64,000 nucleotides of DNA from Parvibaculum sp. Its GTDB lineage: Bacteria; Pseudomonadota; Alphaproteobacteria; Parvibaculales; Parvibaculaceae. The stretch is from contig JAUSLL010000089.1 in assembly GCA_030649335.1 (NCBI GenBank), positions 1 to 64,000 of the forward strand, written 5' to 3'. Positions 24,506 to 30,919 of the stretch are shown here, in pieces. The stretch's first letter is position 1, and each line of letters begins with the position of its first letter. The notes beneath the pieces are model-generated. The model was not told where the DNA came from. It did no database searches and saw only the letters and a list, made by a program, of their open reading frames with translations. Both the position numbers and the translations under genes were made by a program.

Positions 24506-24679
24506 TCAGGCGAACAGATCGACGATGCGCTGGAACATAGCGACAAGGCTTGTGCCGATGGTCGTGGTAGCTGCAGCAACAACCATCGAGAGCAATGCGG
24601 CGATCATACCGTATTCAAGCGCCGTGGCCCCGCGCGTGTCTTTTGAGAACCGCAAAAGCATCTCGTGCATATTGGTCAT
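24506..24679 (-). CDS. Flp family type IVb pilin
   Basis: 57 aa; FSKDTRGATALEYGMIAALLSMVVAAATT prepilin motif. Confidence 0.88.
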   Translation of the reverse strand: MTNMHEMLLRFSKDTRGATALEYGMIAALLSMVVAAATTTIGTSLVAMFQRIVDLFA

Positions 24680-24720
24680 CTTATGCCTCCCACCTTCCGT
24701 CTGACTTCGCCCGCCTCCCT

Positions 24721-25158
24721 TCACAGAAGATCGAGCAAGGCAGCCACAAGCGGTTCATCCGCCGGTGGCATCGCATAGGACCGCAAATCAGCGGGCCTGA
24801 CCCATTTCAGTGCCTGCCCCTCGCGGGACTGCACCTGACCCTCCCAACGCCGGCAAATATAAAGCGGCATCAGCAGGTGAAACGTCTCGTAGCCGTGGCT
24901 TGCAAAACTGAGCGGCGCAAGACAAGGCGGCGCGACAGTGATGCCGAGTTCTTCGTTGAGCTCCCGGATCAAAGCCTGCTCCGGCACCTCGCCGGGATCG
25001 ACCTTGCCGCCGGGAAATTCCCAAAGGCCCGCCATTGACTTGCCCTCGGGACGCTGCGCCAACAAAACGCGGCCATCCATATCGACAAGCGCACAGGCCA
25101 CCACCAGAACCAGCTTTTTAAGCTCCGGGGCCCCTTTGCGCTCGTCCATCATGCTCAC
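24721..25158 (-). CDS. mutT: (deoxy)nucleoside triphosphate pyrophosphohydrolase, MutT-like Nudix
   Basis: Nudix box GGKVDPGEVPEQALIRELNEELGI. Confidence 0.92.
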   Translation of the reverse strand: MSMMDERKGAPELKKLVLVVACALVDMDGRVLLAQRPEGKSMAGLWEFPGGKVDPGEVPEQALIRELNEELGITVAPPCLAPLSFASHGYETFHLLMPLYICRRWEGQVQSREGQALKWVRPADLRSYAMPPADEPLVAALLDLL

Positions 25159-25265
25159 ATTATTTTCTTAATGAATTGGGATAAGAACCCGCTGAATTAG
25201 GCGCAAAACGCCCCTATTCCAGCCGGTTTCCTCGAATTGAGCTGCGATTGTCCGCCCAAACCATA

Positions 25266-26861
25266 TTAGCTGCGATAGTCCGCATTAATTGAAATATAGC
25301 CGTGCGTGAGATCGCAGGTCCAAACAGTGGCAGCCCCCGAACCGACGCCGACATCGACTTCGATATTGATGTCGGAGCCTTTCATGTGGCGGGCGACGGG
25401 CGTTTCATCAAATCCGGGCACAGCCTGACCGTCGCGCGCGACATCAACACCGCCGATGCGGATCGAAAGCCGGTCACGATCAGCGGCCTCACCCGATTTG
25501 CCGACCGCCATGACGATGCGGCCCCAATTGGCGTCCTCACCCGCAATCGCGGTTTTGACGAGCGGCGAATTGGCGATGACCAGACCGATGGTGCGCGCCG
25601 CCTTGACGCTCTCGGCACCCGACACAGCAACAGAAATAAATTTCGTCGCACCTTCACCGTCGCGCACGACCTGATGCGCAAGATCAAGGAGCAGCTCATC
25701 AAGCGCGGCTCGGAAAGCGGCCAAACGCGGATCGACAACCGAGGTGAGCGAGGTTTTACCACGCATGGCTGTGCCGGTGGCAAAGAGCATCAGCGTGTCC
25801 GACGTTGATGTATCGCTATCCACTGTCGTCGCGTTGAAGCTCTTATCCGCGCCGCTGGCGATCAATGATTGCAGGAGCGGCGCAGCAATGGCGGCATCCG
25901 TCACGACAAAGGCGAGCATGGTGGCAAGGTCCGGCGCGATCATGCCTGAGCCTTTGGCTATACCGTTGATCGTGACTTTGACGCCGTCGATTTCAACAGA
26001 ACGCGTCGCGAGCTTGCGATAAGTGTCCGTCGTCATGATGGCGCGGGCAGCCTTGTCCCAATTGTCTTCATCCGCTTCAAACAGTGCCGTGCCGATACCA
26101 TCGATAACAGGGCGCGGGTCGAGCGGCTGGCCGATGACGCCTGTGGAGGCGACAAAGACTTCGCTGGTGCGGGCACCTGCGGCACGCGCTGCGGCTTCAA
26201 CAGTTGCCTCAACGGTTGCCACACCTGCCTTGCCGGTGAAGGCATTGGAATTGCCGGAATTGACGACAACGATGCGGCCCGAACCTGATTTCACATTGGC
26301 GCGGCACAGATCAACCGGCGCAGAGGCCGTCTTTGATGTGGTGAAGACACCTGCCGCCGTTGTGCCTTCGGGCAGACGGATGACGAGCACGTCATCGCGG
26401 CCTTTATATTTGATGCCGGTCGCTGCTGTACCTAGATCGACACCCTGAAGACCCGGCAATTTAGCAAATTTCTTCGGTGCCAGAGGCGAGACAGCGCTTG
26501 CCACTTTTTTAGCTTTGGCAGGCTTTTTCGCAGGTTTCTTGGCTGCCGGTTTTTTGACTACGAGCTTTTTCGCCGCCGGTTTCTTCGCCGGAGCTTTTTT
26601 AGACACGGCCTTTTTTGCGGCGGGCGTCTTGGCGACCGTCTTCTTCTTCGCCGCCGCTTTTTTCACAACCGCCTTTTTAGCCGGTGCCTTCTTTGCAACA
26701 GATTTTTTGGTGGCGGACTTTTTCGCGGCAGGCTTCTTGGCAGAAGCCTTTTTAGCCGCGGCCTTCTTCGCAGCCGGTTTCTTTGCAGCCAATTTTTTGG
26801 CGGGCGCTTTTTTGGCGGTGGCTTTTTTCTTGGACTTCACGGTGGCGCTCCGACTGGGCAA
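25266..26861 (-). CDS. argJ: bifunctional ornithine acetyltransferase / N-acetylglutamate synthase, with Lys/Ala-rich N-terminal extension
   Basis: ArgJ core from [38 protein letters not shown] autoprocessing motif, DANWGRI; first ~120 aa are (xAAKK)-type repeats. Confidence 0.95.
26505..26861 (-). repeat. Coding tandem repeats: Lys/Ala-rich (AKKPAAKK)n histone-H1-like segment fused to ArgJ
   Basis: About 47 Lys in the first 120 residues; ~5-residue periodicity visible in the translation. Confidence 0.9.
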
Positions 26862-26873
26862 AAGGGAGGTGCG

Positions 26874-27731
26874 TTACGGCGCGGGCGTCATCTGTGACGC
26901 AGGTGCCTTGGCTGCTCCGACAATTTCGACTTTTGCCGCTTTACGCAAGTCTTCCATCACCTTATTGCTCTGCTCGCGCACCAGCGAGCGCATGATCTCG
27001 TCCTGCGCTTCTTCAAATGTGGGCTTGGGCGCTTTGCGCGTGTCGATGAGTTTAATCACATGCCAGCCGAATTGCGTCTCGACGGGTGCTGAGACCTCGC
27101 CCTTCTTCATGGCGAAAACGGCATTTGCAAATTCCGGCACCATATCGGCTTTCTTGAACCAGCCGAGATCGCCGCCATCGGCCGCGCTTGAATCCTTCGA
27201 TGCTTTTTTGGCAGCCGCTTCGAAGCTCTCGCCGCCCTTGATGCTGTCGATGGCTTTTTGCGCCTCGGCCTTGGACGTCACAAGAATATGGGCGGCATGG
27301 GCTTCTGTCTCGGATTCGGCCTTGGCGATATTGGCGTCGTAATAGGCTTTGACCTTGGCTTCCGACACTTTGTCGCGCATCAGCTGGACCCAATAGACGT
27401 CACGTAGCACTTTTTCGTCGAAATAGGCCTCGCGCGCCTTCACCATCGGATCATCCTGCATCTTCTTGGCGCGCGCGGCGTCGGCCACAATGCGCCGGTC
27501 GATCAGCATGGAGAGAAGATACTGGAACCGCTGCTGCTCGGGCAGTTGCGCCAACGCCTGACCCATTTCCTCATCCGCCAGTGCCACATCGGACAATTTG
27601 ATGGGCTTACCGTTGACATGGGCGATGATCTCGTCAGACCCCGTGTCAGCCGCTGAGGCCGCAAAAACGCCGCCGGTCGCCAGACCAAACGCAAGAACAC
27701 CGGAGATGAGGGGACGACGGAGGCAACGCAT
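26874..27731 (-). CDS. peptidylprolyl isomerase (parvulin/PpiC type), exported
   Basis: Signal peptide; AHAAHILVTSKAEAQKAIDSIKGGESFEAAAKKASKDSSAADGGDLGWFKKADMVPEFANAVF. Start refined to MRCLRRPLIS. Confidence 0.93.
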   Translation of the reverse strand: MRCLRRPLISGVLAFGLATGGVFAASAADTGSDEIIAHVNGKPIKLSDVALADEEMGQALAQLPEQQRFQYLLSMLIDRRIVADAARAKKMQDDPMVKAREAYFDEKVLRDVYWVQLMRDKVSEAKVKAYYDANIAKAESETEAHAAHILVTSKAEAQKAIDSIKGGESFEAAAKKASKDSSAADGGDLGWFKKADMVPEFANAVFAMKKGEVSAPVETQFGWHVIKLIDTRKAPKPTFEEAQDEIMRSLVREQSNKVMEDLRKAAKVEIVGAAKAPASQMTPAP

Positions 27732-28001
27732 GATGAAGTTCCTGAAGACCGATCCTGAGCCCCCTGATCCGGGTCCAATAATCGGGGTAAATAAAGCCGC
27801 GCCGGACGAGGCTCCGAGCCTCCCGCACACGGGCGTGCCTATGGCACATTTTTGCCCATGATGACGCGCACGCCGCGCCCGCACAAGGCAGCGGAACATT
27901 AATAAACCGAGAGACTTGCGGCCATTTTGTGGCAGCGGACGAACCCCTGCGGCATGGCCGCCGGACGGGCCCGCCTGGCCCTCGCGAGAGGGCCAGTTTC
28001 A

Positions 28002-28030
28002 TTGACAACATCGCCCCTGCTGCTTACATG
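28002..28030 (+). promoter_or_regulatory. Putative secA promoter TTGACA-N17-TACATG
   Basis: -35 at 28002..28007, -10 at 28025..28030. Confidence 0.45.
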
Positions 28031-28195
28031 TCAGCTGTCTTTTTTCCCGCTACGGCCACCAGGGCCTTGAGGGCTTTTTGGCCGCCCCTGAACCGCTATT
28101 CAGGGTGCGCGCGGCGAGATGCCCCGATGGCGCGCCCGCCCGACAAGCTCTCACAGCACAAAGTCTATGCGGAACGCATTGAGGAAACAGAATTC

Positions 28196-30919
28196 ATGGC
28201 TAGCTTCGGCGCTCTCGCCAAGCGGTTGTTCGGCAGCGCCAACGACCGCAAGCTCAAAGCTTACACAACGCGGGTCAACGAGATCAACGCGTTCGAACCG
28301 GCCATTTCAGCCCTCAGCGACGACGATCTGAAAGCCAAGACCGCCGAATTCCGCGCCCGCCTTGAAGCCGGCGCGACGCTCGACGATCTTCAGGCCGAAG
28401 CCTTTGCCACGGTGCGCGAAGCCGCCCAACGTGCGCTCGGTCAACGCCACTATGACACCCAGCTCATGGGCGGCATGGTGCTGCATGACGGCAAGATCGC
28501 CGAAATGAAAACCGGTGAAGGTAAAACACTTGTTGCCACCCTCGCCTGCTATCTGAACGCGCTGCCCGGCAAAGGCGTCCATGTCGTCACCGTCAACGAC
28601 TACCTTGCCAAACGCGACAGCGAATGGATGGCGCAGGTCTACAACTTCCTCGGCATGACCACCGGCGTCATTCTGCACGGGCTGGACGACAACGAACGCC
28701 GCGACGCCTATGCCGCCGACATCACCTACGGCACCAACAACGAATACGGCTTCGACTATCTGCGCGACAACATGAAATATCAGGTCGCCGCCATGGTGCA
28801 GCGCCGCCACGCCTATGCGATCGTCGACGAAGTGGACTCGATCCTCGTTGACGAAGCCCGCACGCCGCTCATCATTTCCGGCCCGCTCGACGACAAGTCG
28901 GAACTCTACATCTCCATCGACGACATCATCCCGATGATTGCCGACGAAGACTTCGAACTCGATGAAAAACAGCGCACCGTCAACCTGACGGAAGACGGCA
29001 ACGAGAAGATCGAGGCGATCCTCGCCGAACGCAGCATTCTCAAAGAAGGTTCGCTCTACGACATCGAGAACATCACCATTGTCCACCATGTGCAGAACGC
29101 GCTGAAGGCGCACAAGCTGTTCCAGAAGGACAAGGACTATATCGTCAAGGGCGACAAGCTCATGATCATTGACGAGTTCACCGGCCGCATGATGGAAGGC
29201 CGCCGCTATTCAGACGGTTTGCATCAGGCGCTCGAAGCCAAGGAACGCGTGACGATCCAGCCGGAAAACCAGACGCTGGCCTCGATCACCTTCCAGAATT
29301 ATTTCCGCATGTACGAAAAGCTTTCCGGCATGACGGGCACGGCGCTGACCGAAGCCGACGAATTCATGGACATCTATGGCCTTGAAGTGATCGAAGTGCC
29401 GACCAACCGGCCTATTGCGCGTATTGACGAGGACGACGAAGTCTATCGTTCGGCCCGCGAAAAATATGAAGCCATCGTGCTTGAACTTGACGATTGCGTG
29501 AAGCGCGGCCAGCCCGTGCTCGTCGGCACCGTGTCGATTGAGAAATCCGAAACGCTGTCTGAATTCCTCAAGAAGAAAAAGATCAAGCACAACGTCCTGA
29601 ACGCGCGCTATCACGAGCAAGAAGCTTACATTGTGGCGCAGGCCGGTGTGCCCGGCTCGATCACCATCGCCACCAACATGGCCGGTCGCGGCACCGACAT
29701 TCAGCTCGGCGGCAACCTTGAAATGCGCGTCGCCGACGAGACAGCGGGCATCGAGGACGAGCGCAAGCGCGAACGCAAGATCGAAGAGATCAAAGCCGAC
29801 ATCGCTGCCAAGAAGGAAGCCGCCAAAGACGCGGGCGGCCTCTACATCATCGGCACCGAACGCCACGAAAGCCGCCGCATCGACAACCAGCTGCGCGGCC
29901 GCTCAGGCCGTCAGGGCGATCCGGGACGTTCCAAGTTTTTCCTCTCGCTTGACGACGACCTGATGCGCATTTTCGGCACCGACCGCATGGAAGGCGTGCT
30001 GCAGAAGCTCGGCCTTAAAGAAGGCGAAGCGATCATCCATCCCTGGATCAACAAGGCGCTGGAAAAAGCCCAGCAAAAGGTTGAAGCGCGCAACTTCGAC
30101 ATGCGCAAGAATGTGTTGAAATATGACGACGTGATGAACGATCAGCGTCGCGTGATTTTCGATCAGCGCGTCGATCTGATGAACGCCCCCGACGTGGCTG
30201 AAACGATCACCGATATGCGCCATCAGGTGATCGACGGGCTTGTGACGACACATATTCCCGCCAAAGCCTATGCCGAACAATGGGACGCCGAAGGCCTCAA
30301 AGAAGCGATCACACTGACGCTCGGTCTTGATCTGCCGATCGCCGAGTGGGCTGCCGAAGAAGGCATTGCCGATCAGGAAATGCGCGACCGTCTTTATGAC
30401 GAGGCCGACCGCGCCATGGCGCAGAAGGTTGCCATGTCCGGCACCGACCTGATGCGTCAGGTGGAAAAAGCCGTGCTGCTGCAAACGCTCGATCATCACT
30501 GGCGCGAACATCTGATGATGCTCGACTATCTGCGTCAGGCCGTTGGCCTGCGCGGCTATGCGCAGCGTGACCCGCTGAACGAATATAAAGGGGAAGCCTT
30601 CGAGCTTTTCGAAAGCCTGCTCAACCGTCTGCGCGAAGACGTGACGCGCCAGATGATGAATGCGCAATTTGTGCAGGAAGCAGCGCCGCGCATTGAAGAC
30701 ACGCCGCTGCCGCAGATGCGGGCTGAACACATCAACCCGAACACCGGCGAGAATGAGTTCGACGGCGGCAACGAGGCGGGCAACCGCCCGGCGCGCAATG
30801 CACCGCCCGTCGCCGTGAACCCCAATGACCCGACGACATGGGGCAAGGTCGCACGCAACGAAGCCTGCCCTTGCGGCTCGGGCAAGAAGTTCAAACATTG
30901 CCACGGGTCTTTTGCCTGA
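28196..30919 (+). CDS. secA: preprotein translocase subunit SecA
   Basis: [34 protein letters not shown]-terminal zinc motif [15 protein letters not shown]; start refined to [14 protein letters not shown]. Confidence 0.98.

Follow-up and report, generated by a model that had tools for sequence, protein, structure and literature searches.

A lysine-rich, histone H1-like N-terminal tail on the arginine-biosynthesis enzyme ArgJ of Parvibaculum and its family

Introduction

Among bacterial proteins, lysine-rich, histone H1-like tails are known from those related to DNA or to granules (TopA, AlgP, PhaF, HC2), and lysine-rich low-complexity regions of prokaryotes have been associated with nucleic-acid binding (PMC6821194). 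In AlgP of Pseudomonas aeruginosa, a helical domain is followed by C-terminal KPAA tetramers, and this C-terminal domain binds DNA and is required for the spacing of polyphosphate granules (PMC9239181). The PhaF phasin of Pseudomonas putida is a granule-coat protein whose C-terminal polycationic tail binds DNA and positions PHA granules (PMC3574117), while in Streptomyces TopA the lysine repeats fused to the enzyme stabilise its complex with DNA (PMC7398561). The bacterial H1-like proteins of the HC2 type (PF07382) stand alone.

Here we describe such a tail on ArgJ, or ornithine acetyltransferase (OAT), an enzyme whose mature form has been described as a heterotetramer (PMC4490483). The window analysed is a 64,000-nucleotide stretch of Parvibaculum sp. 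(contig JAUSLL010000089.1, assembly GCA_030649335.1). Compared with ArgJ/OAT as described (PF01960, NF003802; PDB 1vz6, 3it4), the window's enzyme is the same in its core, its catalytic and self-cleavage residues, its predicted fold and its neighbourhood, but differs by a polycationic N-terminal tail of 117 aa; the matched parts of the solved ArgJ chains begin at about residue 4-40. Like that of AlgP, the tail is of Lys/Ala/Pro low complexity, strongly positive, predicted to be disordered and attached to a folded domain, whereas AlgP carries tetramers at its C-terminus and ArgJ carries KK pentamers at the N-terminus of an enzyme. With PhaF it shares a polycationic, disordered tail joined to a functional domain, although PhaF has no homology to ArgJ. 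TopA, which has a similar tail in the window's own genome, is likewise an enzyme with fused lysine-rich repeats, but its substrate is DNA, which makes the use of its tail evident, whereas ArgJ has no nucleic-acid substrate. In contrast to the free-standing HC2 proteins, the tail is an in-frame N-terminal part of the enzyme in 33 of 33 readable family loci. It is thus no member of HC2 or AlgP, and at most resembles their tails. Full-text literature searches found no paper on a Lys-rich extension of ArgJ. The tail and the enzyme are each of an already known kind; in the literature searched we found no description of the two combined, of this combination being fixed in a family, or of it recurring in other Alphaproteobacteria.

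A complete ArgJ with an N-terminal extension

The gene, its predicted products and its neighbours are as follows:

25266-26861, minus strand: single open frame including the Lys/Ala-rich stretch and ArgJ, stop-free across the junction
25923..26840, minus strand: predicted alpha chain (tail and N-terminal half of ArgJ), with self-cleavage before Thr307; motif conserved
25266..25922, minus strand: predicted beta chain of ArgJ with N-terminal nucleophile Thr307, plus stop codon, from the starts of PDB beta chains
26874..27899, minus strand: upstream gene, PpiC-type peptidyl-prolyl isomerase (ORF call; the true start is probably further in)
24721..25158, minus strand: downstream gene, MutT-type NUDIX hydrolase

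The initial annotation had claimed that a Lys/Ala extension is read in frame into a normal ArgJ core, and the stop-free frame and full-domain profile matches bear this out. Residues 132-531 scored 454 bits against Pfam ArgJ (PF01960; cut-off 32) and 499 bits against NCBIfam NF003802 (cut-off 351), and in these searches the protein from SPLAP onward is a complete enzyme core. The self-cleavage motif with its nucleophile Thr, STGVIG, DGEGATK and the C-terminal NADYRS segment were all found. In an alignment of 27 sequences T233, G234, K296, T307 and E396 were invariant; their catalytic roles we take to be those of solved ArgJ/OAT. The PDB beta chains 1vra_B and 3it4_B begin at query residue 307, and an AlphaFold model of ArgJ has the OAT fold, its best Foldseek matches being 1vz6, 1vz8, 1vra and 3it4, with a TM-score to target of 0.87-0.92 for the 1vz6-1vz8 chains. 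The window's genome has one copy of argJ. Judged from sequence and model, the window's ArgJ is a normal, self-cleaving, single-copy ornithine acetyltransferase / N-acetylglutamate synthase. With the T307 self-cleavage site conserved, the tail would remain on the alpha chain, as had been proposed. The gene order secA / PpiC isomerase / argJ / mutT / Flp pilin (window 24506-30919) is the same as on Sinorhizobium pSymB (CP090106.1), where a GNAT acetyltransferase gene, absent from the window, lies between argJ and mutT.

Start codon and composition of the tail

Three features define the 5' end of the gene:

26490..26840, minus strand: N-terminal tail of ArgJ, polycationic and predicted to be disordered, (AKKxA)n with period 5, 117 aa before SPLAP
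26838..26840, minus strand: most likely ArgJ start codon, GTG (Shine-Dalgarno duplex -5.8 kcal/mol; position matches the relatives' conserved start)
26848..26851, minus strand: GGAG Shine-Dalgarno, seven bases upstream of GTG 26840, kept as gcGGAGcgg in most congeners

The ORF had originally been read from TTG 26861. This codon lacks a Shine-Dalgarno (duplex +0.5 kcal/mol), and at the position of GTG 26840 the relatives have an ATG start with a conserved ..GGAG.., so that the window's ArgJ most likely initiates at GTG 26840 and not at the TTG. A further GTG within the frame (KKVASAV), 5 codons before SPLAP, is also without a Shine-Dalgarno (-0.3).

The tail has the H1/AlgP-like composition and the period of about five residues ascribed to it initially: its 117 aa include 47 Lys, 0 Arg and 0 Asp/Glu (K+R = 40%), and 17 of the 22 intervals between KK pairs are 5 residues. 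When searched alone it matched Pfam HC2 (histone H1-like, PF07382) with 51.8 bits (gathering 40; 1.4e-13), a match that reflects composition and does not imply common descent. In the AlphaFold model, residues 1-110 had a mean pLDDT of 33-48 per block of ten and no secondary structure. The tail is accordingly predicted to be disordered, with the enzyme fold intact.

Conservation and selection within the family

Searching 37 genomes of the genus and family gave 33 loci, from 33 genomes, with a readable ArgJ N-terminus; four incomplete genomes in which ArgJ is partial or absent (G004, G020, G023, G034) were left out. All 33 carry a basic tail, of 39-117 aa and about 28-43% Lys+Arg, with few acidic residues, and a tail this regularly present is far beyond chance. 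K, A, P, V, R, S and T make up about 90% of the family's tails, and hydrophobic or amphipathic character is absent. The presence of the tail at 33 loci from as many genomes also rules out an assembly or frameshift artefact. In several relatives (L004, L007, L008, L013, L017, L018 and others) 49-70 codons separate the last ATG, GTG or TTG from the core, and the next such codon is found only within it; most of the tail must therefore be translated with ArgJ.

In close pairs the dN/dS of the tail was mostly about 0.07-0.35, with tail dS similar to core dS (tail dN/dS of 0.054/0.377 for L014/L020, 0.064/0.734 for L013/L019 and 0.028/0.236 for L027/L028). As tail dS is saturated between L001 and L002, the selection test rests on the other relatives. 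Tail dN was usually 2-5 times core dN, and the tail sequence is thus loosely constrained. Across 13 pairs, single-base differences at Lys codons comprised 6 K-R, 6 K-T, 1 K-N and 0 K-E, which are small counts, and acidic residues occurred in 7 of 190 tail differences versus 82 of 398 core differences. The lack of K-E differences together with the scarcity of acidic residues indicates selection for positive charge, which looks to be maintained in this way. On the family tree, one clade has the tail motif [HR]SKAKxxRAxRK; the window's clade lacks it, yet is equally or more highly charged. That a clade-specific motif is absent there while charge persists suggests that what is conserved is bulk charge. 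The tails of L001 and L002 consist of KK pentamers and show repeat expansion.

ArgJ N-termini across Alphaproteobacteria

We compared 80 loci from 66 alphaproteobacterial families, chosen as those most similar to a tail-containing query, so that the proportion of tailed proteins may be high. Most of the sampled ArgJ have 3-9 residues before SPLAP, and lysine-rich tails of >=20 aa were found in about 10 of the 66 families (f1, f108, f5, f110, f81, f51, f91, f113, f104, f4). The initial annotation had called such a tail unexpected on an arginine-biosynthesis enzyme: it is real on this ArgJ, but it is not peculiar to this copy, being fixed in the family and recurring in other Alphaproteobacteria.

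Other kinds of N-terminus were also seen. Those of Rhodobacteraceae are shorter, Lys-rich and coiled-coil-like, and coiled-coil-like, Lys-rich N-termini occur at L056, L077, L082, L087 and L097. In Caulobacterales (L083, L088, L089, L094, L099) and at L137 and L174, an amphipathic LDPLxxALK/R element is followed by a linker that is often basic; N-termini of this type, which thus recur in several distant families, are possibly an older N-terminal module of ArgJ. At two f110 loci (L136, L195) the N-terminus reads GETLRNAFLRRAQ and continues into a KKAKKKKK-type stretch.

On an ArgJ-core tree, the tail trait required 17 changes by parsimony, at least 9 of them forced by well-supported branches; this was a quick tree of fragments <=230 aa with start codons partly assigned by rule. 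The 17 changes rule out a single origin of the tail in the class. Basic ArgJ N-termini are thus clustered by lineage, yet have been repeatedly gained or lost in Alphaproteobacteria.

Other lysine-rich tracts

In a similarity search of its own genome, the window's tail matched two other proteins only, an H1-like ORF that stands alone and TopA, at its C-terminus. We also scanned by composition 800 kb of the congener G013, one fifth of its genome, taken as four 200-kb blocks of which one was picked to contain argJ and three were not picked by content; only ArgJ, an H1-like protein and TopA came up. With three carriers in the window's genome by similarity and the same kinds in the 800 kb of G013, a genome-wide habit of lysine tails is ruled out.

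The H1-like protein (L112; G000:C97:116148-116577, minus strand) is about 140 aa long and built of (AKKPAAKK)n; G013 has an equivalent (L228 block). TopA (L113; G000:C97 near 133086, plus strand) ends in an AKKPAAKK-type tail, and directly after it lies an RNase R-like gene, named from sequence, whose product has a Lys-rich N-terminus (MKERKPSKKTPAKADAPRKR).

Possible role of the tail

We propose that the tail, which is translated and selectively maintained, acts as a sequence-tolerant electrostatic tether to a cellular polyanion, a reading that we prefer to its rivals and consider about evenly poised between right and wrong. Binding is plausible, and we infer it from the composition of the tail, from its company (TopA and the H1-like protein) and from the precedents of AlgP, PhaF and TopA. 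We likewise infer a benefit to the cell and which polyanion would be bound, the nucleoid or its RNA being the likeliest candidate and polyphosphate the alternative one. The tail would take no part in catalysis; staying on the alpha chain of the mature oligomer, it would be displayed in several copies per ArgJ particle, and these together would hold the enzyme on the polyanion. Yeast Arg5,6 is a precedent. Against a tether, we know of no need of ArgJ for DNA, RNA or polyphosphate, the sequence of the tail is loosely constrained, and the coiled-coil-like or amphipathic extensions elsewhere in Alphaproteobacteria suit contacts with protein or membrane. These same N-termini, the Lys-rich coiled-coil-like ones and those with LDPLxxALK/R and a basic stretch, favour a rather doubtful alternative in which the tail binds acidic arginine-synthesis enzymes or anionic lipid, forming a loose metabolon, instead of nucleic acid; but the family's own tails, with neither hydrophobic nor amphipathic character, resemble DNA-binding tails. 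It is also unlikely that the tail is tolerated and nearly neutral, kept up by slippage of its repeats and by codon bias, or of use for solubility alone. Its faster evolution than the core, its variable length (39-117 aa) and the expanded repeats of the L001/L002 clade would be expected on this account, but the tail has been lost at none of the 33 readable loci, most close pairs give a dN/dS far under 1, K-to-E differences are absent although they need a single transition just as K-to-R does, and the other lysine tracts in the sampled sequence are confined to two DNA-related proteins.

Two further explanations place the effect outside the peptide. Runs of Lys AAA/AAG codons can slow ribosomes, and the tract opens a gene for amino-acid biosynthesis, so a lysine-rich leader might act in cis to tune argJ expression to the supply of amino acids, with no function for the peptide as such. 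We regard this as very improbable: the tract belongs to the ArgJ protein itself instead of forming a leader of its own, Arg codons are absent from the window's tail, a scan of 26400-27000 against Rfam matched no RNA element, and selection acts on the amino acids while synonymous sites are free to change. Even less credible is an annotation artefact, in which ArgJ begins at its core, with the Lys-rich ORF either left untranslated or yielding a short product of its own. The GTG 5 codons before SPLAP would permit it, and the initial annotation had raised a separate product with ArgJ starting at that codon, but the codon lacks a Shine-Dalgarno and in many relatives no start codon lies close to the core (start-free for 49-70 codons), whereas the 5' end of the tail has a conserved start with Shine-Dalgarno and purifying selection is seen at the protein level. 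On start-codon positions and Shine-Dalgarno strength we reject the separate short product and the internal start.

Throughout a family, the tail is a fixed and apparently selected portion of an enzyme of core biosynthesis. If it tethers ArgJ to the nucleoid, RNA or polyphosphate, this would be a clear case of a low-complexity tail that spatially controls amino-acid synthesis. A wider and doubtful extension is that, in this family and convergently in several further lineages of Alphaproteobacteria, ArgJ is a metabolic enzyme tethered to a polyanion, with DNA, RNA or polyphosphate governing its location or its activity. Arginine synthesis, through its acetyl cycle, would then be coupled to nucleoid state or to starvation driven by polyphosphate, and acetylation of tail lysines might be the switch.

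Finally, a 275-aa shadow ORF with FFAAGFLAG-type repeats runs opposite the tail (26515-27342, plus strand). It mirrors the lysine codons of the tail and is probably not a gene.
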